The notes under the pieces are model-generated. The model worked only from the letters and a program-made list of their open reading frames with translations. It was not told the origin of the DNA and ran no database searches. Below are positions 13,969-57,402 of a DNA stretch of 64,000 bases, piece after piece. Origin of the DNA: Halorussus caseinilyticus (GTDB lineage: Archaea; Halobacteriota; Halobacteria; Halobacteriales; Haladaptataceae); contig NZ_CP119812.1 of the NCBI RefSeq assembly GCF_029338395.1, positions 1 through 64,000 on the forward strand, read 5' to 3'. How positions within the stretch are numbered: position 1 is the stretch's first letter; the number at the start of each line of letters is the position of its first letter. A program made the translations under genes and the position numbers.

Positions 13969-14253
13969 ATGCCTCGGGTCACTACCAAAGGTCAGGTCAC
14001 GATTCCGAAGGAGATTCGTGACGCCCTCGGAATTGAACCGGGCGACGAACTCGCCTTCGAGAAAACAGACGCTGGCTATACGATTCAGAAACAAGAACCG
14101 ACGACAGCCAACGGTGAGAACCCGTTCGAAAAATACCGCGGAAGCGCGGAGAGCGAAGCGTCGATGCCTGAGCGAATGCGCCGACTCCGCGGCGAATATC
14201 CACGAGATGTGAACGACGACGAGGACGACGGAGACTCGGGGGCTGAGGCGTGA
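13969..14253 (+). CDS. AbrB/SpoVT-type antitoxin
   Basis: A 94-aa protein with the swapped-hairpin AbrB signature MPRVTTKGQVTIPKEIRDAL and GDELAFE at the N-terminus and a disordered acidic tail for toxin binding. Its stop overlaps the start of the PIN toxin gene (14250-14253), giving coupled translation. A 138-aa version from 13837 is unlikely, because the AbrB fold starts at this ATG and the operator-like palindrome lies directly upstream. Confidence 0.85.
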   Translation: MPRVTTKGQVTIPKEIRDALGIEPGDELAFEKTDAGYTIQKQEPTTANGENPFEKYRGSAESEASMPERMRRLRGEYPRDVNDDEDDGDSGAEA

Positions 14254-14726
14254 TCACGTCGGTTGATACGAATGCACTCCTCGCGTTGTTGTACGAGGAT
14301 GGCTATGCGGACGCAAGTGAGGACGCACTCCGAAGCGCCTATCAGGACGGCAAAGTCGTCATTCCATCCATCGTCTACGCAGAACTTGCGGCCGATGGTC
14401 ACTTCGAGACGACGTCCAACCTTGACCAGTTTCTCGAGGACTTCAGCATTCAGCTCGAAGACCCGTCTCCAGCCGCGCTCTTCCGAGCAGGTGAACAATT
14501 CCAACAGTATGCTGACCGACGGCCAGACGGGCTTCAGTGTCCCTCCTGTGGTACGAAGCAGACCGTGCGATGTGAGGAGTGCGGTGGCGAACTCGCGCCA
14601 CGCCAGCACATCGCCGCCGATTTCGTCATCGGTGGTCACGCGGTCGCTGATGCAGATGCACTCATCAGCTTTGACGATGCATTCTACGACACGTACTTTC
14701 CGTCGCTGACTGTCTTCCCAGAGTGA
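14250..14726 (+). CDS. PIN-domain toxin with zinc-ribbon insertion
   Basis: A 158-aa PIN protein starting at GTG: D6 in SVDTNAL, Glu in YAELAA, acidic residues in AADFVIGGHAVADAD and SFDDAF. Between the second and third acidic motifs it carries CPSCGTK....CEECG, four cysteines spaced as a zinc ribbon, which ordinary VapC toxins lack. The insertion could bind the RNA target or stabilise the fold at high salt. It forms an operon with the AbrB antitoxin. Confidence 0.8.
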   Translation: MITSVDTNALLALLYEDGYADASEDALRSAYQDGKVVIPSIVYAELAADGHFETTSNLDQFLEDFSIQLEDPSPAALFRAGEQFQQYADRRPDGLQCPSCGTKQTVRCEECGGELAPRQHIAADFVIGGHAVADADALISFDDAFYDTYFPSLTVFPE

Positions 14727-17291: not shown

Positions 17292-17356
17292 AAACCGTCT
17301 CAGGGCCTCTAGATATTACGACCTGACTCTCACCAAAAAATAGCCCAACTCGGCCT

Positions 17357-17467
17357 ACTTCAATCCCGTCGTGGGTTTTCTGGGTGCTGCGACGCCTCGC
17401 GCGGTCGAAGATGGGAGATGGTTGGACCGTATTTCAATCCCGTCGTGGGTTTTCTGGGTGCTGCGAC
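17357..17467 (-). CRISPR. Minimal CRISPR: two 37-nt repeats, one 37-nt spacer
   Basis: Repeats at 17357-17393 and 17431-17467 differ at one base. On the minus strand they start GTCGCAGCACCCAG and end GGGATTGAA(A/G)T, the ATTGAAA-type 3' end typical of haloarchaeal CRISPR repeats. The single spacer is 17394-17430. No further repeat units are seen on either side and no complete cas genes lie nearby. Probably a stub of a deleted array or a mini-array served in trans. Confidence 0.75.
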
Positions 17468-17588: not shown

Positions 17589-17927
17589 TTACATGGACTC
17601 GGCGTGCGTTCGGAGGAGTAGCCGTCCGGTGAGCGTCAGTTCGACCTGCTTGGTCTTCCCTTCTGCACTAGTCCGAACTGCACCTGCTTCCGCGAGTTGC
17701 GTCACATGCCGGGCGACTGTACTCTTCGCGGCGTCGCTGTCGCTCGCTAACTCGGAAATCGAAACTGGCCCCTCGATAGTTGCGAGAAGTTGCAACGTGT
17801 CGAGCGTCTTCGCGGTCGCGCCGTCAAGTCCGACCCGCACGCCGTTCAAGACTTGTTCGACGGCCGCTTCCACCCGGACCACATCGGTCTCACTCTCGGC
17901 GTCGGCGTTGGATAGGTTCGACGCCAC
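17589..17927 (-). CDS. Winged-helix transcription regulator
   Basis: About 113 aa from a GTG at 17927. The core, TLQLLATIEGPVSISELASD then KSTVARHVTQLAEAGAV and a KQVELTLTGRLLL wing, is a MarR/IclR-type winged helix. It begins 2 nt after the stop of the zinc-ribbon gene, so the two form an operon. Probable DNA-binding regulator with unknown target. Confidence 0.65.
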   Translation of the reverse strand: MASNLSNADAESETDVVRVEAAVEQVLNGVRVGLDGATAKTLDTLQLLATIEGPVSISELASDSDAAKSTVARHVTQLAEAGAVRTSAEGKTKQVELTLTGRLLLRTHAESM

Positions 17928-17929
17928 GG

Positions 17930-18109
17930 TTAGCGGCAGTCGGCGCAGACGACGCCTTCGCCACTGGTTGGACCACCACACTCGGGGCAGTCGGCGGGGA
18001 ACAACTCTGGCCCGCAGTCACGGCGCGCGACCTCTTCCGCGCGTTCCATGCGTTCGCACTCCCGGCAAATCCGGTTGGGCGTCCGACAGCCACACTTGCG
18101 ACACCCCAT
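17930..18109 (-). CDS. Small double zinc-ribbon protein
   Basis: 59 aa with eight or more cysteines: MGCRKCGCRTPNRICRECER at the N-terminus and CPECGGPTSGEGVVCADC at the C-terminus. Two treble-clef or ribbon knuckles are likely. Such proteins are frequent on haloarchaeal plasmids and viruses and may bind nucleic acid. The ATG at 18109 is chosen because the first Cys pair follows immediately. Confidence 0.65.
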   Translation of the reverse strand: MGCRKCGCRTPNRICRECERMERAEEVARRDCGPELFPADCPECGGPTSGEGVVCADCR

Positions 18110-18508
18110 CGTTACACCCCTCCGTCCGGGCCGCAACTGGTTGGCGAGCGTTACGCTTTTCTTCCGATAGCTCTGACTCGTACATGGCTTTTCCGTGGGT
18201 TTGGAAAGCCGTGGTTCGCGGGTGTTCCAGCACCCGTGACCGTTCTCCACAAAAGAGAGAACGCTCGGTGAGCCTCGGCTTTCCTATCTGTTCGTAGACA
18301 CGGATACAACTTAAAAATACTGAAAGTAATATGCAAGCTATAGCGCCGCTACCCCTAGAAAAACGCACTTTCAGACCACCGCAATAGTACTTAAACCGAC
18401 GGGCAACCACGGGCGAGACACACCACCGCCGCCGAGCAACCAGTGGTTAGCACAACTTGCTACCGTCGCCGACCCCTCTTCGCGGCCCCGAGCGAGGACA
18501 CGACGGCC

Positions 18509-18760
18509 GCTAACCAACAGTGGCCGTCGTTCGTTCGCCCGTGTTGGTTAGCCACAGTTCCGGCCGAGACGGGGCGCTCGGGGGAGTCCGGCCATTAACC
18601 AACAAGCCGACTCTTGGATACCGTCGTGTTGGTTAACTACAGTTCCGTCCGAGTTCCGACCGAGACCGACGGCCGACTGAGGGCGGCGTCGAAGCAAGAC
18701 GCTCGGGGGAGTTCGACCGCTAACCAACACCGGCCGTCGCTCGTTCGCCAGTGTTGGTTA
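18509..18760. repeat. Array of three long inverted repeats (TAACCAACA-N22-TGTTGGTTA)
   Basis: Arms at 18509-18519/18542-18552, 18595-18604/18627-18636 and 18721-18729/18752-18760. Every pair is perfect over 9-11 bp and always separated by 22 nt. The spacer between units 2 and 3 recurs between the two units at 20045-20210. The stretch 18110-18962 has no convincing gene. Confidence 0.75.
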
Positions 18761-18962
18761 ACTACGGTTCCGGCCGGGACGCTGTGATACTCTTGAAGTC
18801 TGGTTGGGGGTGGCGTCGAGGCGCTCTTGGTTGGTGGTGTGGGCCGTGAACGGGCTTTGGTGTCTTGTTGGGTGTGTGTCGAATCACGTACATAAAGTTA
18901 ATATTCTATCATGATGTATTCTGGTGTTGGTCGAACAGCTAGAATTCGACAGGGAGAACTCG

Positions 18963-19787
18963 ATGATTCGAACTCGACACCGACTCGCTGTCTTCTGTCT
19001 CGTACTGACAACGCTTCTTCTCGTCGCCGGACTCACGGGCGGCGACACCCATCCGCGAGCGCAAAACTGTGACTCGACATCGAAGAACTTCGATGAACAA
19101 ACGGCGCTCCAGAACCTCCACACCCCGCCCCGGCCGATACTAGAAATACTTCCGCGAGAGACCACGACGTACACCGGAAACGCGACCGTCTTCCTCATCT
19201 GCGTCGTTAACCCGCCGGAGAACTCCGTCTTACTTGACCCGTATCTTACCGTCATTCATTCACCGGAGAAAGACAATCCCGTTCCGAGGATGGTAGCCGT
19301 CTCTCGAACCGTAGAGAACGGGACACGGACAAATACCCTCCATACGAAGCCACTTATAAGTCAGATGGAATATCACTGTAGTACTCGGATTCCTATCGAT
19401 GGACTTCATCCGGGGGAAGCCGCACAAGTGCCGGTTATTGTCACGAACAGTAGTCCATCCGGCGAGTATCGACTCGTCGCAAAAGTCGGTTGGGTAACCA
19501 ACAGACGAGTCGGAAACTTACCTATCGAACGACGAGCGACGTTACATATCGATTCACCGCCGACGCCGCCGTGCGGACTTTTCTGTACGGTGCAAGTCGC
19601 ACTTGTGTCTACTGTAGAGTTCGTCTTTGAGGAACCTGTAAAAGCCACCGCTATTTTCACTGGTTTAAGCCTTCTCGCCTACATTTTCGGCCCCGAGAAT
19701 ATTCGAATCACTACTCGTCGGGTAGCGAGACGACTGTTCCATTCCGCACGTCGGGGTTTCGACTGGCTTCGCCAACGAGTCTCGTAG
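18963..19787 (+). CDS. Secreted or membrane-anchored protein of unknown function
   Basis: A 274-aa protein with an N-terminal signal peptide (LAVFCLVLTTLLLVAGLTGG), an external beta-rich domain with several Cys residues and N-glycosylation-type sites (GNATV, ENGTRT), and a C-terminal membrane helix (ATAIFTGLSLLAYIFG) before a very basic cytosolic tail. I prefer the ATG at 18963 to an in-frame upstream start because the signal peptide begins there. The gene is enclosed by the TAACCAACA inverted-repeat arrays on both sides. Possibly a surface receptor or adhesin; no family recognised. Confidence 0.6.
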   Translation: MIRTRHRLAVFCLVLTTLLLVAGLTGGDTHPRAQNCDSTSKNFDEQTALQNLHTPPRPILEILPRETTTYTGNATVFLICVVNPPENSVLLDPYLTVIHSPEKDNPVPRMVAVSRTVENGTRTNTLHTKPLISQMEYHCSTRIPIDGLHPGEAAQVPVIVTNSSPSGEYRLVAKVGWVTNRRVGNLPIERRATLHIDSPPTPPCGLFCTVQVALVSTVEFVFEEPVKATAIFTGLSLLAYIFGPENIRITTRRVARRLFHSARRGFDWLRQRVS

Positions 19788-20044
19788 GAAAACAGCGAAA
19801 GCTCGGAGCAAGCTGACGGCACCAAATCGCGGCTTTCGACCGGCTAACTCACTCTGCCACCCTCTTCCCCGATAGAAAAGAGCCTGTCTCGTCGAGGGGT
19901 CGCTCCCGTCGCTCGGCCGACTATCACTCTCCCCCTCCACGTCGGTCACTGCGAGACGCATGGTCTACGATGCCGCGAATTGGATAACACCGAAGAAAAC
20001 AGTCGCCACGACTTCGGCCACCCCGAGCGACGACGCGTCGGCAA

Positions 20045-20210
20045 CTAACCAACAGTGGCCGTCTTCCGTTCGCCCGTGTTGGCTAGCCACGGTTCCACCC
20101 GAGTTCCGACTGAGACCGACGGCCGACTGAGCGCGGCGTCGAAGCAAGACGCTCGGGGAGTCCGGCCGCTAACCAACACACTGGTTCTCGGATACCGATG
20201 TGTTGGTTAG
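20045..20210. repeat. Two more long inverted repeats of the same type
   Basis: Arms 20045-20054/20077-20086 (one mismatch) and 20169-20180/20199-20210 (12 bp). Spacing between the TAACCAACA cores is again 22 nt. About 85 bp between the units matches the spacer inside the first array (for example GGCCGACTGAG and GAAGCAAGACGCTCGGG). Apart from this array I see no gene in 19788-20512. Confidence 0.75.
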
Positions 20211-23441: not shown

Positions 23442-23553
23442 ACCTGCTATAACAGGTCTCGTTCGTCTCTGATATTTCAATCTTTCATTTAATATCAGAT
23501 TTTATAATACGCAACAGACACTTTAGATGTGGGTGAGAACACGGCCGCAATGA
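23442..23553 (+). promoter_or_regulatory. Conserved toxin promoter with palindrome, TATA box and 8-codon uORF
   Basis: Palindrome ACCTGCTATAACAGGT at 23442-23457, TATA box TTTATAAT at 23501-23508, uORF MWVRTRPQ at 23527-23553 with its TGA overlapping the main ATG at 23550. Same geometry as loci 1 and 3. Confidence 0.72.
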
Positions 23554-26500
23554 ACGCTCGGAGCCAGCAGATTCTCGCCGTCGCCTTCTCCATTCTCATC
23601 GTCACGGCGACGGTGACACCCGCCACCGCCGCACTCGACTCGCCACCCGCCCAATCCGACGACGACCTGCCGTCGCTCTCGTCGTTCGCCACCACCATCG
23701 CAGGCCACGAACTCTTCCCCGACACACCCGGCAACGGCAACGGAAACGGACCGGGGAATGGAAACGGACCGCCGAAGACCACCACCGCGACCACGACAGT
23801 CGGCAACCAGACGACCACGACCACGCCCGGCCAAGGACCCCCCGAGAATCCCGGACAGGGACCGCCAAAGAACAAAACGCAAGGCCCACCAGAGAACCCC
23901 GGACAGGGACCACCGGAGAATCCCGGTCAGGGGCCGCCACCGCACGCTGGACCACCGGAGAATCGCGGACCGCCGTCGTGGGTGCCGAACAAGGGCAGAG
24001 ACTCGAACGCGGACAAACGCGGCCCGCCAGAATGGGCGAAAAACGGGCAAGCCCCGCCACCAGTCTCGAACCGCTCGGCGCTCCGTAATCGGAGCGAACC
24101 ACTGGCGAACGCGACCATCAACGTCTCTCTCCACGGGAACGCCTCGGCCGCCGACTACCGACTCGCCGCCATCGACGCCCTCCAAACCACCGAGTTCGAC
24201 GCGCCCGGTAGCTCCGCCGACGACCACCGCCGCCAAGCCCTCCGCGAACTCAACGAATCGCTCGACTACGTTCTCGACGCCAACCGCACCACCTCCGCAC
24301 AGTTGTTCGAGCGCGACAAAGAAGCGAGTACACCCCCGCAGTTCGCGCCGAGCGTCACGAAACTACTGGTGCGGTCGGACGAGCGATTAGCTCATACGGC
24401 TATCGCGGACGCCGACCGTCTCGCTAGCACGCTCCGTGAGCGGAACGTCTCGTTCGACGAGTCGGCCGTCGAAGAGAATATCTCCGGAGCGCGCGCGGCG
24501 GTTGACCGCGCCGAGCGCTTCCGGGCGCGCGGCCAACAGCATACCGCCATCAGCCAGTACCGAGTCGCGTGGATTCACGCCCAGCAAGCCCTCGACGTAC
24601 TCGACCTCGCTACGACGCCGAACGTCACCATCACCACCCGCGAGGACATGCCCCACGAGGAAAACGTCACCTACGCGGTCCGCGGCCGCGTCTTCGACGT
24701 TCGAGGCCACGAACTTGCGCTGGCGCTGTCGTTGAACGGCGCGAACCGGACGCTCAATCTGTCGGTGAACACCACGCCGGGCGCGATTGGGACCTTCGAG
24801 ACGAACGTCACCCTCTCGCGGCAGGTCAACCGCATCACGGTCGCGGCAACCGACCCGAACCGGCGGTGGTCGCCGGAGTACGGCGGCGACAACAGGACGG
24901 TCGGGCGGGACGTGCTTCGACTCGACGGTGACGGGTTGCCGGACTTCTACGAGTTGAACGTCACGGGAACCGACCCGCTCGGCCCGGACAGCAACGCTTC
25001 GCGGACTTCGTTTAACGAGTCGGGCAACAACGTGACCGACGGGGCGGAGGACTTCGACAACGATGGAGAGACCGCCGCACAAGCCTACTGGTTCGACCTC
25101 GACCCGCTGGACAACGACACCGACGGCGACCGCCTGCGGGACGGCTTCGAACTCCAGTTCAGCGGTATCGACCCACTGTCGCCTGACACCGACAATGACA
25201 CGGTTCGAGACTCGGCCGAAGACCTCGACAACGATTCGCTGTCGAACCGCCGCGAGCAGACCGCAGGGACGAATCCCGTGGAGAACGACACCGACAGCGA
25301 CACCCTCGGCGACGCCGAGGAGTTGGCTAACGGGACCGACCCCTTGTCGCCCGACACCGACAGCGACGGCTTGACTGACCCCAACGAGTACGAGTTAGGG
25401 ACGGACCCAACGGTCGCCGACACCGACGGCGACGGCGTGCTAGACGGCGACGAAACGTTCTCGACGACGACCGAAAACGAGTCCGTCGGCGCGAGCGTCA
25501 ACGTCACCGCCGACGGCACCACTGCCGCGACCGTCACCATCCAGAACGAGACCGACGACCGGATTCAGACCGGAACGGTCGCCAACGCCTCCGCATCGGA
25601 AGTGTTGGACGTGGACGCGGACGCCGAGTTCGAGGAGGCGAATCTCTCCATCGACTACGACGAGCAAGCGGTCGGCGACGAGTCGGACTTAGCGGTCTAC
25701 ACCTACGACCCCGAACTACAGACGTACGTAAAACTCCCCTCGGAAGTGGACGCCGAGAACGACTCGGTGACGGGGACGACCCCCCACTTCTCGACGTTCG
25801 TCGCCATGAACCAGACCGCATGGCAGAACTACATGCAGTCACGCGCAAAACCTCTACCCAAATACGCGCTCAACGAGTCGTTCAGCGACCTCTCGGGGTG
25901 GAACTGCACGGGCTCGTGTTCGGCGAGTGGTGGCCGAGCAATCATCGGACCGGAACTCATCAGCTCTCAATCGGCTGGTGACCAAACTCTGGCACGCAAA
26001 CTCGGGATTGGAACCGAATGTTACACCACCCCCGACGGCGAGGAGTGCGCACCGCCCACTGGACCAGACCCAACGACGACTGAATCATCGGAAACAACGA
26101 CGGCTGACGACCCCGGCACTGCTCCAACCGACCCCGAACCCGAACCCGACCCGCCGAAGGACCTCGGGTCCGCGGAACTCGCTAAATCCGTCTCGATTCC
26201 GTCGGACGCGGTCGAAGTCACGTTCACGATGCCGATTGTGGCGTTCGCCGAAGAGTCGAACGCGAGCGTGGAAGTCGTGGTGTCGGTCGGGTCCGAGACC
26301 CGGACCGTCCTTGAGCTGTCGGGTGAAGACGGCGAGCGCACCACCGACTACGAGTACATTGACGAGACGTTCGAGAACCCCAGCGGACAATACGTGTCCG
26401 TATGGGTTCGTAAGGAAAACCTCGCCGGTGCGAGTCCGGCATTTGCGAACATCGAACTCAAACGCGACAGCGACGGCGACGGCCTGACGAACGGGTTAGA

Positions 26501-28721
26501 GCGACTCGGCGTCAAGACCGGGACCGGACGCGTGTCCACCGACCCGTACGACGCCGACACTGACGGCGACGGCATCACCGACGGCGCGGAAGTCGCGGAC
26601 TACATCCCGCGGTACGTCGATGGCGGCTACTTCGACCTCGAAAGCAATCCGACGAAAGTCGATTCAGACGGCGACGGACTCGATGACTTCGAAGAGACTT
26701 ACGAGGAGCGACTCGTCCGCTATGCGGGGTCGAGCGACGACTCCAAGCGGTTCTTAGCGGCACTGCACAGCGGCGACGACCCCGGTGACTACCTCACGTC
26801 CCAGACGGTGACGACCGATGCGATGCGTCGGGATACCGACGGCGACGGCATTCCGGACGGCAAGGAACTCGAACTCGGGACGAACCCCGACGGGTCCGAC
26901 ACCGACGGCGATGGCGTCCCGGACAGCGAAGAACTCGACTGGGGGGCCGACCCGACGCTCCACGACTATCAGGGGCCGGAAATCGGCGTGCAGGAAGCGA
27001 ACTTCTACAAGCGTTCGTGGAGCACGAAGACGACCTATCAGGTGGTGTACTCCGCGGACGACCCGAGCGGGGTCACGATGACGGAGTTGCTGAAAACCGG
27101 CGAGGTCGAAAAACGCTACCAGTGGTCCGAAAATACGCATCTCGGCCACTCACCGTCGTTCTCGACGGGCGCGAAAGAGACGATTCTCGACGGACTAGCC
27201 GGAGCGACGGTGAAGATTCGGGCGACCGACCGCCACCAGAACGTGCGGACGAAAGTGGCGATGGAACGAACTAACGTCTGGGGGTCGGTGGCGAAGGAAC
27301 TCGCCACCGAGATAGACGGCAGTGACACCGAAATCGCGCTCGGCGCAGGCCTGCTCTCCGGTCTCTCGGTGGGCGCGGGCGGAACGGGCCGCGCTATCGA
27401 TTCGATTGTGAGCAATCCCTACGGGTTCTACCAGACGCTCACACAACTCATCTCGCTCGCTCGCAACCTCGGCCTCGTCCATGAACTCCTTAACTCGCTT
27501 CCGGAGCAACTGGTTGAGGACCTCAAACAGAAACAACAGGTGAACAATCCGTACGACAAGCAGACCGAGTCGGCGGAGTACGAGAGCTTCAAGGAAGGCT
27601 GGTATATCTCGTACGGCTTCTACTATCTCGCATCGACGCTGGTCGGCGAGAAGGCCAAGACCGCGGTCAAGAGTACGAAGACGTTCTCGAACTTGATGGA
27701 GCGGCTGGAGAGCGACGGGAAGTTGTCGGAAGCGCTCGGGTACATGGACGCGGTGAAGGGCCGGACGACCGGGCGTGCGAAACGGGTGACGTTCGAACTC
27801 GGCGAGCGAGCGGCGAAGGGAAGCTGGCACTTGAGCAAGAAGAGCGGACGCCGGGTGGTGGCGGGCGTGAAGACCGCCGCCGGGAAGTACGACGCACGCC
27901 AGCGACTCGGGAGTCTTAGTGACCATACGTTAGCGAAAATCGAGGGATATTCACCGGAGACACAGCGGTTCGTGGGACCAGTTCTGTCGCGTCTTGGTCG
28001 TGATGGCGAAGAGTTCCTTGAAGAGGCTGATAGCGACGACGTTACCCAGATGATGCAGATGCGGCGCGTGATGGCCGATGGAGGTCGTCTAACTATTGAT
28101 GAGTCTCGGCTTTGGTCATATCGACTTGCAAAACTTGTTGGTTCAGATGAGGTATCCTCCGACGAGTACGCGAAGTATTTAGATAATCTTGAAGCGATGA
28201 ATCATGAACGTCGGGAAGAACTCGTAGAACTTACTCTTGAGTCTGATTCTGCATCTGCTAAGGATGCAGTTCAGTTTACCAATGATTACGTTCGTCTTCG
28301 ACAGGTTGACCGTATTGATAGCGATAACGTCGAAGATAACCTTGAGGATGTCTATCAGCTAGCGCTAACTGGTGATAGTGGGAATTTCGCGGGTGCCGCG
28401 TTCGAAGCACGGTATGCCGCAAGTAAAGCGGACGACGTTCTCGCTATCGAGGGTGACCTGAAAGATATCGAGCGAATTGAAAACCGGCCGGGTGATATTG
28501 ACGTGCTGACCGAGGAAAATGGTGAAAGAATAGGACATGAACTGAAGAGTAGTAGTGACAAAGGTGAAGTTGGCGATATAGTTGAGGGATATGAAGAATT
28601 AATCGACAAAGGCGTTGTTGATGATTATAGACTCGTGTTCAAACGCGACCCATCCAATGAGCTAGAACAATACATGGACTCAAACGGAATAAACTACGAG
28701 GTTTATACACCCGAAGAGTAA
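23550..28721 (+). CDS. Giant secreted polymorphic toxin protein, copy 2 (PD-(D/E)XK nuclease tail)
   Basis: 1,723 aa. Start ATG at 23550, because the signal peptide starts there as in the other copies. Order: Sec signal (1-28), PGQGPP stalk (about 85-150), helical domain, beta-sandwich, TSP3 block (about 458-635), HFS motif (746-748), jelly-roll, TSP3 block two (about 970-1130), Ig-like domain, hydrophobic pre-toxin region (about 1247-1452), variable toxin (1453-1723). The toxin ends with D1651 in GDIDVL and E1664-L-K1666, the D...ExK core of restriction-endonuclease-like nucleases; an earlier Glu in AAFEARYA fits the helix residue. The tail is AT-richer than the rest. Predicted: secreted, Ca-rigidified surface fibre delivering a DNase to neighbouring cells. 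The only copy with an uninterrupted toxin and adjacent immunity gene. Confidence 0.82.
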   Translation: MNARSQQILAVAFSILIVTATVTPATAALDSPPAQSDDDLPSLSSFATTIAGHELFPDTPGNGNGNGPGNGNGPPKTTTATTTVGNQTTTTTPGQGPPENPGQGPPKNKTQGPPENPGQGPPENPGQGPPPHAGPPENRGPPSWVPNKGRDSNADKRGPPEWAKNGQAPPPVSNRSALRNRSEPLANATINVSLHGNASAADYRLAAIDALQTTEFDAPGSSADDHRRQALRELNESLDYVLDANRTTSAQLFERDKEASTPPQFAPSVTKLLVRSDERLAHTAIADADRLASTLRERNVSFDESAVEENISGARAAVDRAERFRARGQQHTAISQYRVAWIHAQQALDVLDLATTPNVTITTREDMPHEENVTYAVRGRVFDVRGHELALALSLNGANRTLNLSVNTTPGAIGTFETNVTLSRQVNRITVAATDPNRRWSPEYGGDNRTVGRDVLRLDGDGLPDFYELNVTGTDPLGPDSNASRTSFNESGNNVTDGAEDFDNDGETAAQAYWFDLDPLDNDTDGDRLRDGFELQFSGIDPLSPDTDNDTVRDSAEDLDNDSLSNRREQTAGTNPVENDTDSDTLGDAEELANGTDPLSPDTDSDGLTDPNEYELGTDPTVADTDGDGVLDGDETFSTTTENESVGASVNVTADGTTAATVTIQNETDDRIQTGTVANASASEVLDVDADAEFEEANLSIDYDEQAVGDESDLAVYTYDPELQTYVKLPSEVDAENDSVTGTTPHFSTFVAMNQTAWQNYMQSRAKPLPKYALNESFSDLSGWNCTGSCSASGGRAIIGPELISSQSAGDQTLARKLGIGTECYTTPDGEECAPPTGPDPTTTESSETTTADDPGTAPTDPEPEPDPPKDLGSAELAKSVSIPSDAVEVTFTMPIVAFAEESNASVEVVVSVGSETRTVLELSGEDGERTTDYEYIDETFENPSGQYVSVWVRKENLAGASPAFANIELKRDSDGDGLTNGLERLGVKTGTGRVSTDPYDADTDGDGITDGAEVADYIPRYVDGGYFDLESNPTKVDSDGDGLDDFEETYEERLVRYAGSSDDSKRFLAALHSGDDPGDYLTSQTVTTDAMRRDTDGDGIPDGKELELGTNPDGSDTDGDGVPDSEELDWGADPTLHDYQGPEIGVQEANFYKRSWSTKTTYQVVYSADDPSGVTMTELLKTGEVEKRYQWSENTHLGHSPSFSTGAKETILDGLAGATVKIRATDRHQNVRTKVAMERTNVWGSVAKELATEIDGSDTEIALGAGLLSGLSVGAGGTGRAIDSIVSNPYGFYQTLTQLISLARNLGLVHELLNSLPEQLVEDLKQKQQVNNPYDKQTESAEYESFKEGWYISYGFYYLASTLVGEKAKTAVKSTKTFSNLMERLESDGKLSEALGYMDAVKGRTTGRAKRVTFELGERAAKGSWHLSKKSGRRVVAGVKTAAGKYDARQRLGSLSDHTLAKIEGYSPETQRFVGPVLSRLGRDGEEFLEEADSDDVTQMMQMRRVMADGGRLTIDESRLWSYRLAKLVGSDEVSSDEYAKYLDNLEAMNHERREELVELTLESDSASAKDAVQFTNDYVRLRQVDRIDSDNVEDNLEDVYQLALTGDSGNFAGAAFEARYAASKADDVLAIEGDLKDIERIENRPGDIDVLTEENGERIGHELKSSSDKGEVGDIVEGYEELIDKGVVDDYRLVFKRDPSNELEQYMDSNGINYEVYTPEE

Positions 28722-35141: not shown

Positions 35142-35253
35142 ACCTGCTATAACAGGTCTCGTTCGTCTCTGGTATTTCAATCTTCCATTCAGTATCAGAT
35201 TTTATAATACGCAATAGACACTTTAGATGCTAGTTTCTACTGCACTGCAATGA
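35142..35253 (+). promoter_or_regulatory. Conserved toxin promoter with palindrome, TATA box and 8-codon uORF
   Basis: Palindrome 35142-35157, TATA box 35201-35208, uORF MLVSTALQ at 35227-35253 overlapping the main ATG at 35250. The uORF codons differ from the other two loci but its length, frame and overlap are kept. Confidence 0.72.
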
Positions 35254-38200
35254 ACGCTCGGAGCCAGCAGATTCTCGCCGTCGCCTTCTCCATCCTCATC
35301 GTCACGGCGACGGTCACGCCCGCGACTGCCGCCCTTGACTCGTCATCCTCCCAGTCCGACGCCGACCTCCCCTCACTCTCGTCGCTCGCCACCACTATCG
35401 CAGGCCACGAACTCTTCCCCGACACACCCGGCAACGGTAACGGAAATGGACCCGGCAATGGAAACGGGAAGGGACCGGGCCAGACGACGACCGCGACCAC
35501 AACGACGGCCGGGAATGAGACGACCACACCCGGCCAAGGCCCGCCGGAAAACCCCGGACAGGGACCGCCAAAGAACAAAACGCAGGGACCGCCCGAGAAC
35601 CCCGGCCAAGGTCCGCCGGAGAACAAGACGCAAGGCCCACCGGAGAATCCCGGACAGGGACCACCCGAGAACCCCGGACAGGGACCGCCGGAGAATCCCG
35701 GTCAGGGACCGCCGGAGAACCCCGGACAAGGACCGCCACCGCACGCGGGGCCGCCGTCGTGGGTGCCGAACAAGGGCGGGAACTCGAACGCGGACAAGCG
35801 CGGCCCGCCCGAATGGGCGAAGAACGGGCAAGCCCCGCTACCGCCTACGAATCGGTCGGCGCTCCGTAATCGGAGCGAACCACTGGCGAACGCGACTCTC
35901 AACGTCTCTATCCGCGAGAACGCTTCGGCCGCCGACTACCGGCTTGCCGCCATCGACGCCCTCCAAACCACCGAGTTCGACGCGCCCGGTAGCTCCGCCG
36001 ACGACCACCGCCGCCAAGCCCTCCGCGAACTCAACGAATCGCTCGACTACGTTCTCGACGCCAACCGTACCACGTCGGCGGAACTCTTCGAGCGCGATAA
36101 GGAAGCGAGTACACCCCCGCACTTCGCGCCGAGCGTCACGAAACTACTCGTTCGCTCGGACGAACGCCTCGCGGCGACCGCTATCGCGGACGCCGACCGA
36201 CTCGCGGCGACCCTGAACGACCGGAACGTCTCGTTCGACCAGCAAGCCGTCGCAGAGAACATCTCCGGGGCGCGCCGAGCAGTCGAGCGCGCCGAGCGCT
36301 TCCGCGCCCGTGGCCAACAGCACACCGCCATCAGCCAGTATCGGGTGGCATGGATTCACGCCCAGCAAGCCCTCGACGTACTCGACCTCGCTACGACGCC
36401 GAACGTCACGGTGACCACTCGCGAGGACATGCCTCACGAGGGGAACGTCACCTACGCGGTTCGTGGCCACGTCTTCGACGTGCGCACTCACGAACTCGCG
36501 CTGGCGCTGTCGTTGAACGGTGCGAATCGGACGCTCAATCTGTCGGTGAACACGATGCCGGGCGCGATTGGGACGTTCGAGACGAACGTGACGCTTTCGC
36601 GGCAGGTCAACGAAATCACCGTTTCAGCGACCGACCCGAACCGGCGGTGGTCGCCCGACTACGGCGGCGAAAACAGGACCGTCGGCCGGGACGTGCTTCG
36701 ACTCGACGGCGACCTCTTGCCGGACACCTACGAAGAACAGGTGACGGGAACCGACCCGCTCAGTCCGGACAGCAACGCGTCGCAGACTTCGTTCAACGAA
36801 TCGGGGAACAACATCACGGACGGGGCGGAGGACTTCGACAACGACGGGGAGACCGCCGCGCAAGCCTACTGGTTCGACCTCGACCCGCTGGACAACGACA
36901 CCGACGGCGACCGCCTACAGGACGGCTTCGAACTCCAGTTCCAAGCGCTCGACCCGCTGGACACCGACTCCGACAACGACACGGTTCGGGACCCCGCCGA
37001 GGACCTCGACAACGACTCGCTGTCGAATCGCCGCGAGCAGACAGCAGGTACGAATCCGGTCGAAAACGACACCGACGGCGACACGTTGAACGACTCGGCG
37101 GAACTCGCCAACGAGACCGACCCCTTGTCGCCCGACACCGACAGCGACGGCTTGCGCGACCCCGACGAGTACGAAGTCGGCACCGACCCGACCGACCCCG
37201 ACACCGACGGTGACGGCGTGCTGGACAGCGACGAGACGTTTGCGACCGAGACCACCGACGAGGAGACCGGCGTCACCGTCAACGTCACCGGCGAAGGCAA
37301 CGTCGCGGGCGCGGTGTCGGTGAACACGAGTTCGCGGACGATTCTGGAGACCGCGAGCGTGCAGAACGTGAGCGCGTCGGGAGCCTACGACTTCGAGACG
37401 ACCGCGAACTTCTCGACGGCGACCATCTCGCTGCCGTACAACGACTCGCGGGTCAGCGCCGAGAACGAGACGACGCTCGGCGCGTATCGGTACAACGAGA
37501 CGCTCCAGACGTTCGTCGCCGTCACCAACTCGACGGTAGACACCCGCAACGACACGGTGACCGCCGAGACGCCGCACTTCTCGACGTACACGGTGCTGTC
37601 AACTGAGACGTGGGAATCGCGGTTCGACCGCGCGCTCCCGGACAAGTGGTCGAACACGGACAACTTCAGCACCCTCGACGGCTGGGAAGAGGACGGCAAC
37701 GTCTCGACGGCGACGGTCGACCGCGCCGGAGTCGCCACGAGCGACGCCGCCAGCGAGGAGTCGGCGGCGGTAGTCGGGTCGCTCACGCGCGAGCAGACCG
37801 AGCGCAACTGGTCGAAGCCGTCTGAGACCGAGAGCGAGACGACTACGACATCGGAGGGGTCCGAAACGACGACCACAGTGACGGCGACGACGACGGAAAC
37901 GGTGTCAGGTTACGAATACTGCGAGCAGTCCGGGCCGGAGAGCAACTGGGGATGTGAGCCGACCGAGGAACCCTCGGAGACGACCGAAGAGGAAGTGTCG
38001 AACCCGGACCCGAAGGTCGACTCGGACGGCGACGGGACGTACGACCGCTACGACGACTGTCCGGCGACGCCGGGTGAGAACAACGGGTGTCCCCAGCATA
38101 GCGACAACGACGGTATCAAAGATTACAACGACGAGTGCGACAACAAGGAGGGGTACGGCGACGGGTGCCCGACCCACAGCGACGCCGACGAGGTGTCGGA

Positions 38201-40586
38201 CTTCCACGACGAGTGTCCGAACACGCCGGGAGTCCGCGAGAACGGGTGTGCGAAAAACACCGACGGCGACGACTACAACGACTTTTTCGACGACTGTCCG
38301 GACGAACCGGGGACGCTCTCGAACGGCTGTCCGACCGACGACGACGGCGACAACACCCGCAACTACTACGACGACTGCCCCCAGTTCCCCGGCTGGAAAC
38401 CCAACGGTTGCCCGCGCGAGTCGAGTTTAGAACGTACCGTCACCTTACGCGACGCCGAAACCGTCACGTTGGGCGTGGTGGCGAAAGCCAACGCCATCAG
38501 CCATCGGTCGGTAGCCGAACTCGTGGTCATCGGGCCGGACGGCGAACGCACTCGGGTCTACGGCGAAGACAACACGTACGCGAGTACCGAGAGCGTCCGC
38601 GAATCCCAACTCGGCGCGGAGGCCGTCCTCCCCGGCGGCGGGGGTGACGCTCACGGGGATTTCGAGGCGGTCGAACACGACCTCTCGGAGTACGCGGGCG
38701 AGCAAGTCACCATCAAAATCGAGACGGTCGGCCGCGCCACGTTCGAGATTGACGCGCTGAAACTCGGCTACGACACCGACGGCGACACGTTGTACGACGC
38801 GGTCGAACGCGGGACGTGTGGCCTGCGGGACGGCCGCGGGCAGTGTCTGGACACCGACCCGCGGCTGGCGGACACCGACGGCGACGGGTTGAGCGACAGC
38901 TACGAGGTGGGCGAGCGCCAGCAGGTTCACGGCCGCGAGTACCACGTCCTCGTGAGCAACCCGACCGAGCGCGACACCGACCACGACGGCCTCTCGGACG
39001 CCCAAGAGCTACGTGGGTTCGACACCGCAGTCACCCAGAGTCCGGACGCCTCCCGGAAGTATCTCAACGGCGAGTCGCCCTCGGACAAAGCCGAACACCT
39101 CACCACCGAGTGGACCAACAGCAACCCCTTCGCGTACGACTCGGACAACGACGGGTTGTCGGACCGCGAAGAGTGGCTTCACAAGACCGACCCGACCAAT
39201 CCCGACAGCGACGGCGACGGCCTGCTCGACGGCCGCGAACGCGCCGTCGGCGAAGACCCCACCCTCCACGACTATCGGCCGCCGGACATCCGTCTGGCCA
39301 GATACGGCTATCTCGCCAACTACAGCGAGATGGAAATCGAGTACATCCTCGAATACCTCCTGTTCGACCCCAGCGGCGTCGAACACACCGCCGTCGAGAA
39401 GAACGGCAAGACGCGCTACCAATCGTCGCCGAACGCGGTGTTCAGTCGTCACGACGGGTCGTTCTCGGTGTCGGGCGTGAGCGCGGTCAGCGACGAACTC
39501 GCGGGCGCGACCGTCGAAGTCACCGCGACCGACAGCCACGGCAACCGGAAGAAAACGGTCGGCATCCGGAAAGCCAACGCTGTGGGGCGTCTCGCCGGAA
39601 AACTCGACGCGGACACGATGTACGCGACGGGGGCCGCCGAGAAACTGGGGGCGCTCTCTGGCTTTTCGGCGGGGATGGGCGGCACCATCAAGTCGCTCCT
39701 CGGGTTGGTCAACGACCCGCTCGGATTCGTCAAAGGACTGACCGGCCTCATCGACCTACTCGACGAGTCGGGCCTGCTCGGGATGTTCCTCGACGCGATG
39801 GTGTCGAGCCTCCAAGACAAACAGAAGACGAACAACCCCTACGCAGAGGGGTCGGCGCTCTACGACGAGTACCGTAATAGCTGGTACGCGGGCTACACCG
39901 TCGCGTTCATCACGAAAGCGATTGCAGGCGCACAAGCCACGAAAGTCGTCAAGAGTTCAACGTACGCCCAGAAGGTCTCGAACTTCGCCAAATCCACGCG
40001 CGCAGGCAAGGCCGCGATGCGAGTGAAAGCACCCTACGACCGCGGGAAAGCGCGTGCGGCGACCGGGTTGGCGCGAGCGACCGACCGAGCGTCGGGGCCG
40101 CTACTCCGGCGGGCGAAATCGGCGGGCGCGACCTATCGACTCTGGCGGTTGCAACGCGAAGGCGAGGTGGACACGAGCGACCTGTCAGACATTGAGCGCG
40201 ACCGAGTCGTGCGGTATCTCGCGCGCCACGGTGAGGATGGGGCTGAAGACCTCCGTGAGATGGACGACGTGGCCATTCAGCGGATGTTCCGGAAGACGTG
40301 TAGTAGCGGTGGTATCGGGTCATTTGGCCGGGCAGGTGGTGGTTGCACGCCGTTGAGTGACGAGGAACTCCGGGACTACGCTAGTGCAGTTGGAGACGCA
40401 GATGTCGGGCTTGGTCCGTTCTACAAGAAGGTTGACGACACGGATGTAAGTGAAGCGGCGGCCGAACGGTTTGTCGCCGAGACTGGACCGGCAGGACTTC
40501 GATTGGCGGTTAAGCTTGAGTCTAAGGCGTTTGAACAACTGGTCAAAATCGATGCGGATGCTCAGCGCGTACTCGTCCGAGCGTGA
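35250..40586 (+). CDS. Giant secreted polymorphic toxin protein, copy 3 (toxin end truncated)
   Basis: 1,778 aa. Signal peptide and PGQGPPEN stalk as in the other copies, with the longest stalk of the three (about 90-170). TSP3 block one about residues 490-670; HFS motif at 776-778. Then a divergent middle with Cys-paired TSP3 repeats of the OmpA type (DSDGDGTYDRYDDCPATPG and four more), a jelly-roll, another TSP3 block and a hydrophobic pre-toxin region different in sequence from copy 2. The last residues (DADAQRVLVRA) run into DNA belonging to an IS630-type relic, so the catalytic toxin part is lost and no immunity gene follows. Probably still exported as a fibre, but harmless unless re-armed by recombination. 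Confidence 0.8.
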   Translation: MNARSQQILAVAFSILIVTATVTPATAALDSSSSQSDADLPSLSSLATTIAGHELFPDTPGNGNGNGPGNGNGKGPGQTTTATTTTAGNETTTPGQGPPENPGQGPPKNKTQGPPENPGQGPPENKTQGPPENPGQGPPENPGQGPPENPGQGPPENPGQGPPPHAGPPSWVPNKGGNSNADKRGPPEWAKNGQAPLPPTNRSALRNRSEPLANATLNVSIRENASAADYRLAAIDALQTTEFDAPGSSADDHRRQALRELNESLDYVLDANRTTSAELFERDKEASTPPHFAPSVTKLLVRSDERLAATAIADADRLAATLNDRNVSFDQQAVAENISGARRAVERAERFRARGQQHTAISQYRVAWIHAQQALDVLDLATTPNVTVTTREDMPHEGNVTYAVRGHVFDVRTHELALALSLNGANRTLNLSVNTMPGAIGTFETNVTLSRQVNEITVSATDPNRRWSPDYGGENRTVGRDVLRLDGDLLPDTYEEQVTGTDPLSPDSNASQTSFNESGNNITDGAEDFDNDGETAAQAYWFDLDPLDNDTDGDRLQDGFELQFQALDPLDTDSDNDTVRDPAEDLDNDSLSNRREQTAGTNPVENDTDGDTLNDSAELANETDPLSPDTDSDGLRDPDEYEVGTDPTDPDTDGDGVLDSDETFATETTDEETGVTVNVTGEGNVAGAVSVNTSSRTILETASVQNVSASGAYDFETTANFSTATISLPYNDSRVSAENETTLGAYRYNETLQTFVAVTNSTVDTRNDTVTAETPHFSTYTVLSTETWESRFDRALPDKWSNTDNFSTLDGWEEDGNVSTATVDRAGVATSDAASEESAAVVGSLTREQTERNWSKPSETESETTTTSEGSETTTTVTATTTETVSGYEYCEQSGPESNWGCEPTEEPSETTEEEVSNPDPKVDSDGDGTYDRYDDCPATPGENNGCPQHSDNDGIKDYNDECDNKEGYGDGCPTHSDADEVSDFHDECPNTPGVRENGCAKNTDGDDYNDFFDDCPDEPGTLSNGCPTDDDGDNTRNYYDDCPQFPGWKPNGCPRESSLERTVTLRDAETVTLGVVAKANAISHRSVAELVVIGPDGERTRVYGEDNTYASTESVRESQLGAEAVLPGGGGDAHGDFEAVEHDLSEYAGEQVTIKIETVGRATFEIDALKLGYDTDGDTLYDAVERGTCGLRDGRGQCLDTDPRLADTDGDGLSDSYEVGERQQVHGREYHVLVSNPTERDTDHDGLSDAQELRGFDTAVTQSPDASRKYLNGESPSDKAEHLTTEWTNSNPFAYDSDNDGLSDREEWLHKTDPTNPDSDGDGLLDGRERAVGEDPTLHDYRPPDIRLARYGYLANYSEMEIEYILEYLLFDPSGVEHTAVEKNGKTRYQSSPNAVFSRHDGSFSVSGVSAVSDELAGATVEVTATDSHGNRKKTVGIRKANAVGRLAGKLDADTMYATGAAEKLGALSGFSAGMGGTIKSLLGLVNDPLGFVKGLTGLIDLLDESGLLGMFLDAMVSSLQDKQKTNNPYAEGSALYDEYRNSWYAGYTVAFITKAIAGAQATKVVKSSTYAQKVSNFAKSTRAGKAAMRVKAPYDRGKARAATGLARATDRASGPLLRRAKSAGATYRLWRLQREGEVDTSDLSDIERDRVVRYLARHGEDGAEDLREMDDVAIQRMFRKTCSSGGIGSFGRAGGGCTPLSDEELRDYASAVGDADVGLGPFYKKVDDTDVSEAAAERFVAETGPAGLRLAVKLESKAFEQLVKIDADAQRVLVRA

Positions 40587-56022: not shown

Positions 56023-57402
56023 ATGGCCGACAGTCTCAACCAACGAACACTCGGCGAATACGCCGCCGAACACGGGGCCGTCGCCCACTCCAGAACCGAA
56101 CAACGCGACGACCCTCTCTCCGTTCTCAACGAAGAAGACCCTATCTTCGCTGACGAAAACCTCCTCCGCATCGACCACGTCCCCAACCAAAACAAAATCG
56201 TCGGCCGAAACCGCCAAATCGAAACCGTCGCCCGCCGCCTCAAATCAACGATCGACGGCGGCTCCGGCAAAGGAACACTTCTCCTCGGCAAATCTGGCTC
56301 CGGAAAAACACTCGTCACCCGCTACGTCAGCCGCGAAGTCGAACAACGCGCCCGAGAAAACGACGTGCGGGTCGGCCGCGCAATCGTCGACTGTGGACAA
56401 CGACGCTCCGAAACCCAGACCGTCATCAACCTCGCAAAATCCCTCAACCAGCCGGACGAAACCAACGTCAGCGTTCCCGCCTCCGGAATCGCCACTGGCG
56501 CGTACTACGACCGACTCTGGGACATCATCAACCAACTCTACGACGCCGTTATCGTCGTCTTGGACGAAATCGACCGACTCGCACCGGGCGACGAACTCAA
56601 ATCCGGCATGCCGCCCGAAGAAGCAGACGACAGTAAACTCCTCATGCAACTTTCGCGCGCGGGCGAAGAAGACGACATCGACGCCGGAATGACCGTCCTC
56701 GGCATCAGCAACGACCTGAAATACGGCGACCGACTCGATACCCGCGTCGAAAGCTCGTTCTCCCCCGACGAAATCGTCTTTCCAGCCTACGACGCCAACC
56801 AACTCGGCGAAATCCTCGAACGCCGCCGCGACGCTTTCAAAGACGGCGTCCTCTCCGACGACGTAATCCCACTCTGCTCTGCGTTCTCCGCACAAGAACA
56901 CGGAGACGCACGCCGAGCGCTCGACTTATTCCGGCTCTCGGGCGAAATCGCTCGTGATGAAGACGCCAGCGAAGTCCGCGAGGAACACGTCCGGTCGGCC
57001 AACGACGACGCTGAAGTCACTCGCATCCGCGACCTCATCCGTGGCTGTCCAACACAAGCGAAAATCGCTATCGCGGCGCTCGCCGCGATGGACGAGTTCA
57101 CCGACCACTCGTACTTCAAAGCGACCGAGATGTACCGCGTCTACCGTGCGTTCGCACAAGCCATCGACGTTGACGCACTCGGCCAGAAACGAATCACCGA
57201 CCAACTCCGAGAGTACGAAACCCTGAAAATCATCGACATCGACCGGACGAGCGACGGCTACCGCGAAGGCACATACCTCAAACTCTCCCTCCTCGACGAC
57301 TCAAACCTCATCCTCCAATCCGTCGGCCTCGACAGCCGCCTCGCAAACATCCCAATCGGCAGTACGATGCAACGAGAAATCGTGAAACTCGTCGAATCCT
57401 AA
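56023..57402 (+). CDS. orc: Orc1/Cdc6-type replication initiator
   Basis: 459 aa. AAA+ core with Walker A LLLGKSGSGKTLVTRY (near residues 84-99), Walker B VIVVLDEIDRLAPGD, a sensor-1 region VLGISNDLKYGDRLD, sensor-2 arginines in GDARRALDLF, and a C-terminal winged helix (LREYETLKIIDIDRTSDGYR). Such proteins bind origin repeats and start replication; haloarchaeal plasmids usually carry one next to the origin. Origin repeats are not obvious here because the IS6 insertion abuts the 5' side. The N-terminal 50 residues (RTLGEYAAEHGAVAHSRTEQ) are typical of plasmid-type members. Confidence 0.88.
   Translation: MADSLNQRTLGEYAAEHGAVAHSRTEQRDDPLSVLNEEDPIFADENLLRIDHVPNQNKIVGRNRQIETVARRLKSTIDGGSGKGTLLLGKSGSGKTLVTRYVSREVEQRARENDVRVGRAIVDCGQRRSETQTVINLAKSLNQPDETNVSVPASGIATGAYYDRLWDIINQLYDAVIVVLDEIDRLAPGDELKSGMPPEEADDSKLLMQLSRAGEEDDIDAGMTVLGISNDLKYGDRLDTRVESSFSPDEIVFPAYDANQLGEILERRRDAFKDGVLSDDVIPLCSAFSAQEHGDARRALDLFRLSGEIARDEDASEVREEHVRSANDDAEVTRIRDLIRGCPTQAKIAIAALAAMDEFTDHSYFKATEMYRVYRAFAQAIDVDALGQKRITDQLREYETLKIIDIDRTSDGYREGTYLKLSLLDDSNLILQSVGLDSRLANIPIGSTMQREIVKLVES

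Follow-up and report, generated by a model that had tools for sequence, protein, structure and literature searches.

Spaced palindromes on haloarchaeal plasmids and viruses as putative binding sites of a small protein family

Our analysis of an array of inverted repeats in Halorussus caseinilyticus points to a pairing of a DNA site with a small protein that is real, widespread and apparently undescribed. We think that the repeats are probably binding sites of this protein, which is found on haloarchaeal plasmids and viruses, and that the two together form an autoregulated, centromere-like plasmid-maintenance system. Comparison of the sequences strongly suggests that the protein binds the site, and argues more weakly for a role in partition. 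Among the results listed in literature searches, covering mostly journals outside subscription, no haloarchaeal paper described the motif.

The array and the architecture of the site

The stretch of DNA analysed (64,000 nucleotides, the window) belongs to a contig, C4, that also carries an orc1/cdc6 replication initiator at 56023..57402 on the plus strand, recognized by the Pfam domains Cdc6_lid and Cdc6_C. The motif TAACCAACA-N22-TGTTGGTTA has five matches in the window at three or fewer mismatches, compared to 0.01 expected from dinucleotide-preserving shuffles of the 64 kb. Exact copies, to which we assign no strand, lie at 18511..18550 (C..G-flanked), 18596..18635 (T..A-flanked, and 20/20 to the general consensus TTAACCAACA/TGTTGGTTAA), 18721..18760 (C..A-flanked) and 20170..20209 (C..G-flanked). 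The remaining copy at 20046..20085, also C..G-flanked and without strand, has one mismatch, its right arm being TGTTGGCTA, so that the five repeats of the preliminary description are four exact copies and one near copy. That description was right about the surroundings of the repeats. By their inner 22 nt the sites divide into two types that are related to each other (18511/18721/20046 and 18596/20170), three sites come before and two after the ORF at 18963-19787, which has no Pfam match, and the DNA between units is itself repeated. The inter-site segment at 18625..18730 (plus strand) has 90% identity to its counterpart at 20075..20179 (plus strand), with the aligned stretches given more narrowly as 18625-18708 and 20075-20158, 18486-18568 has 87% identity to 20021-20103, and the segment is part of a duplicated multi-site module that is present on plasmid C3 too. 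Between the duplicated C3 and C4 site copies the interiors differ by 27.5%, the flanks by 31% and the arms by 1.7%, a comparison that is biased because it was the arms that identified the copies. Decayed arms do occur, in a copy at C3:16039 with three mismatches and in a flank-matched copy at C3:23213-23289.

A set of 151 independent sites gives the consensus TTAACCAACA-N-TGTTGGTTAA, with T as the outermost base in 85% and C in 13%. The arms are fixed, the interior carries next to no information, and Watson-Crick pairing of the inner positions (0.21-0.32) is that expected by chance. On nine plasmids that carry the candidate binding protein described below, the gap between 10-bp arms is 21 (28 sites), 22 (28), 20 (4), 23 (4) or 18 (1) bp. 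This places the half-sites 31-32 bp apart from centre to centre, or 3.0 turns of 10.5 bp; the figure of about four turns given earlier corresponds to the outer length of 40 bp and not to the 31 bp between core centres. A random and unpaired interior, fixed arms and a spacing of 21-22 bp argue for a double-stranded protein site rather than an RNA hairpin, a CRISPR or a MITE, and the layout fits a site read on one face of the DNA helix. A CRISPR array, already discounted in the preliminary description, was rejected for the reason given there, that the variable part sits inside the dyad, and also since the sites are scattered singly across plasmids.

Several other features of the window were observed. 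Two 38-nt repeats, 74 bp apart, lie beside the site array at 17356-17393 and 17430-17467; they resemble a seven-copy CRISPR-like array on C3 (L215:6000-6478; repeat ..TTTCAATCCCGGTGTGGGTTTTCTGGGTACTGCGAC, spacing 71-75) and are read as a short CRISPR remnant. The same C3 locus also holds a second array, which matches Rfam CRISPR-DR24. A MazE/AbrB-like antitoxin followed by a PIN-domain toxin is found at 13969-14726. Very large, related surface-type proteins are encoded at 23529-28721, this one with TSP3 repeats, and at 35250-40586, in modules that are duplicated within C4 and on C3.

Spread of the site and the candidate binder

A search of the H. caseinilyticus genome (5 contigs, 4.39 Mb), as the preliminary description had suggested, placed all matches at three or fewer mismatches on C3, C4 and C5, with C1 and C2 free of them. 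These three contigs appear to be circular plasmids whose written sequence runs on beyond a full turn, as C4 repeats itself after 116,449 bp, C5 does so after 103,568 bp and the site list of C3 repeats too. Copy counts therefore need deduplication. Of 195 related genomes 99 carry the motif at one mismatch or less, and none carries its reversed control. Among the matches listed in a scan of GTDB genomes almost all are haloarchaeal records, many of them plasmid-sized. Viral contigs supplied 37 stretches with the site, and haloviruses carry it too, ChaoS9 having three sites with one directly upstream of the gene of the candidate binder. The window region had no match in PLSDB by DNA similarity search.

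The largest gene cluster near the sites is a mix of two small proteins, and the one of ~108 aa has a site immediately ahead of its start. This haloarchaeal protein is the likely binder of the site, judging by its genomic association. In a test that did not depend on the site, a protein-profile search supplied 40 genes, which were fetched with their flanks. The palindrome was upstream of all 40, perfect in 39 and 19/20 in the other, compared to a shuffled maximum of 15/20, and in the 39 genes with a callable start the site ends 12-16 bp before the ATG. A strong protein hit and the site also tend to occur in the same genomes, the counts over 188 genomes being 88/9/10/81 (Fisher p 6e-31, ancestry ignored). 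The family is known from pHS1 of Halobacterium salinarum R1, pNG500 of Haloarcula marismortui and pHLAC01 of Halorubrum lacusprofundi, has a member in the virus ChaoS9, and is found on 222 PLSDB plasmids, where the named genera are all haloarchaeal. A phylum-wide sample of 247 genomes gave 34 positives, all within the same order. In the viral contigs a single-sequence search returned two relatives and an alignment search none. At two loci, L317 and L320, the site is preceded by another inverted repeat of distinct sequence (CGAAACTTGTATATAAATAAGTTTCG in L317), ~100 bp ahead of the binder start, which is possibly the promoter with another operator.

Adjacency alone could mean that the gene is simply a target, and it is the shift of specificity along with the protein that argues for the protein reading the site. 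T..A flanks are found at the sites of 58 of 59 proteins with YYYWQWR (type A). Those with YYYLQWR (type B) have C as the left flank in 5/5 and C..G in four, and the B-type pNG500 likewise has a C..G site. Sites with C..G flanks were present in 17 of 189 genomes; the majority of the copies come from a single genus (g21), which was also a source of B-type genes. A third protein subgroup (..YYYWQWREGDSWKNEYIAPVN) has GTTACCCCAC-N20-23-GTGGGGTAAC upstream, its arm being TTAACCAACA with two substitutions. This palindrome is found in 9 of 189 genomes, often in several copies, and at four loci (L347, L348, L351 and L352) the start of the variant gene follows it by one base. The system thus appears to have at least three specificity classes. 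Taken together with the random interior and the strict 21-22 bp spacing, this covariation favors the protein binding at fixed spacing that was suggested at the outset.

What kind of protein this would be is less clear from comparison to known families. The copy on C5 matches nothing in Pfam or NCBIfam, and hence no ParB, KorB or other centromere-binding domain, and the family profile gave nothing convincing against the PDB and no recombinase match. An AlphaFold2 model from a 15-sequence alignment (pLDDT 75, pTM 0.41) has helices at 14-22 and 25-52, a low-confidence linker, and strands at 73-79, 82-91 and 94-103. The predicted layout is then a helical hairpin, an acidic linker and a C-terminal three-stranded sheet with ..YYY[WL]QWR.., for which Foldseek returned no significant match.

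The earlier view that no gene explains the sites can be revised, as this small plasmid gene family does so, although its members in this genome lie outside of the window. C5 has an intact A-type gene with its site ~18 bp upstream, C3 has two frameshifted B-type remnants, and no binder gene could be detected on C4. The flanks differ between the plasmids, those of C3 and C4 sites being mostly C..G and those of C5 sites T..A. The array in the window consists of duplicated, mainly C-flanked sites, a class for which this genome retains only the two C3 pseudogenes as binder, and its plasmid carries no binder gene; the array may still be bound, perhaps by the C5 protein, or may be a relic. An IclR-like HTH gene at 17589-17981 was also considered as the binder. 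Its relatives were seen only beside the C3/C4 arrays, and it was set aside because the sites elsewhere accompany the small protein family.

Layout on plasmids and the proposed function

Plasmids with the binder carry 4-13 sites each, compared to 0 in shuffled sequence for the mapped ones. Of 82 sites mapped on eleven plasmids, a simple gene caller, which makes the count approximate, places 71 between genes. Sites not adjacent to the binder lie nearer to it than a uniform distribution would give (n=75, mean 0.36 of the half-circle, KS p 2e-4), and sites between tandem genes lie close to the end of the upstream gene (median 0.13, p 2.5e-5), with the caveats that some mapped plasmids share a backbone, so that the sites in these statistics are not all independent, and that the gene calls are approximate. 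On each of the nine binder plasmids mapped for this, an orc1-like gene lies next to the binder. On pNG500 the gene order is parA, ORF, site, binder, and on most mapped plasmids parA is not adjacent to the binder, being present or elsewhere. An ArdC-like gene is near the binder on several plasmids (C5:35270-36442; pJ7-1; pHS1), resembling the leading region of conjugative plasmids.

In the mechanism that we propose, a binder dimer or a pair of dimers would hold the two half-sites, three turns apart on the same helix face, and ignore the sequence between them. The site beside the binder's own start codon would provide autoregulation. The remaining sites, across the plasmid but denser near the binder/orc1 locus and mostly between genes, would then allow the complex to mark and maintain the plasmid in the manner of a partition or centromere complex.

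The same protein and site could instead have a transcriptional job, with the protein as a plasmid-wide repressor or silencer and the sites as operators or roadblocks. We regard this as unlikely, while giving it some weight given that one site is always just upstream of the binder gene and that further gene families recur near sites. However, the orientations of the flanking genes are those of intergenic DNA generally, 13 of the 71 intergenic sites are between convergent genes, and the sites between tandem genes favor the end of the upstream gene over the start of the next. A role in replication, as iteron-like copy-number control or handcuffing at an orc1-linked origin, is less probable again. 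The proximity of the binder to orc1 on all nine mapped plasmids and the higher density of sites there would suit it, but many sites are tens of kilobases away, and iterons usually sit together at the origin.

Two further readings fare much worse. A folded RNA, raised in the preliminary description, or more generally arms acting as a hairpin in RNA or single-stranded DNA (a 3' end element or small RNA), would explain the folding potential of each unit (z-scores -1.6 to -6.3) and why many sites are just after stop codons; it is very improbable, as pairing beyond the arms is at chance, a loop has no need for the exact 21-22 nt that is kept, and Rfam gave only sub-threshold matches with no family at the gathering score. 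We give least credence of all to ends of a MITE or IS, named at the outset as what might undo the binding idea, or to a recombination site, since, even though the units in this genome have partly spread through duplication of larger modules, interiors and flanks are unrelated across the 151 independent sites, the unconserved 22-bp core is far longer than the spacer of tyrosine recombinases, and the partner protein is small and without a recombinase match.

The maintenance reading is of interest because the way haloarchaea keep many large plasmids is poorly understood. The site and protein pair is present on plasmids of known strains and in ChaoS9, which makes it directly testable, and the covarying classes supply a specificity code that is ready for use, and perhaps one for incompatibility as well. 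In its fullest form the proposal is of an undescribed, haloarchaea-specific plasmid centromere system with a new DNA-binding family, half-sites three turns apart and at least three classes of site and protein that possibly enable several large plasmids to coexist within a single cell. This we put forward tentatively, with rather less confidence than the maintenance role itself.

Comparison with known systems

Bacterial ParB/parS and the KorB/OB system of RK2 use more than one palindromic site on a replicon, and some of these sites lie at promoters, with autoregulation and linkage to the origin. Here there is no ParB or KorB domain match, and the half-sites are three turns apart whereas theirs are adjacent. 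Some members of the binder family have been annotated before, namely ChaoS9_240, phiH1_250 and Nmag_4297, which are in or near haloviruses and are annotated only as uncharacterized (PMC6471424, PMC6210493); no mention of the site was found in the text of these two papers.

Among archaeal systems, SegAB of the Sulfolobales has a small DNA-binding protein and palindromic sites upstream of its cassette, clustered and scattered over the replicon (PMC12284271), and the likeness is in this combination of a small archaeal protein with palindromes upstream, nearby and scattered. SegB is a chromosomal ribbon-helix-helix protein, always found with segA, that uses a compact 13-bp palindrome mostly in genes (PMC12284271), whereas the system here is on plasmids and viruses with two 10-bp arms 21-22 bp apart that are mostly intergenic. 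Homology to SegB or a ribbon-helix-helix fold found no support in a family match, and the model, of modest confidence, has helices with a three-stranded sheet. On the plasmid pNOB8, dimeric AspA binds a palindrome upstream of its own gene in a three-gene par cassette, AspA-ParB-ParA (PMC5120986), which is comparable to the parA-ORF-binder order on pNG500. AspA is a winged-helix protein for which a single 23-bp site nucleates spreading (PMC5120986), in contrast to the many sites with a free interior seen here and a binder to which no fold is assigned. Given that no known centromere-binding domain turned up and that the sites are laid out differently, we do not class the system as a member of any of them; in the way it would work, it is most like SegB, AspA or ParB-type centromeres.
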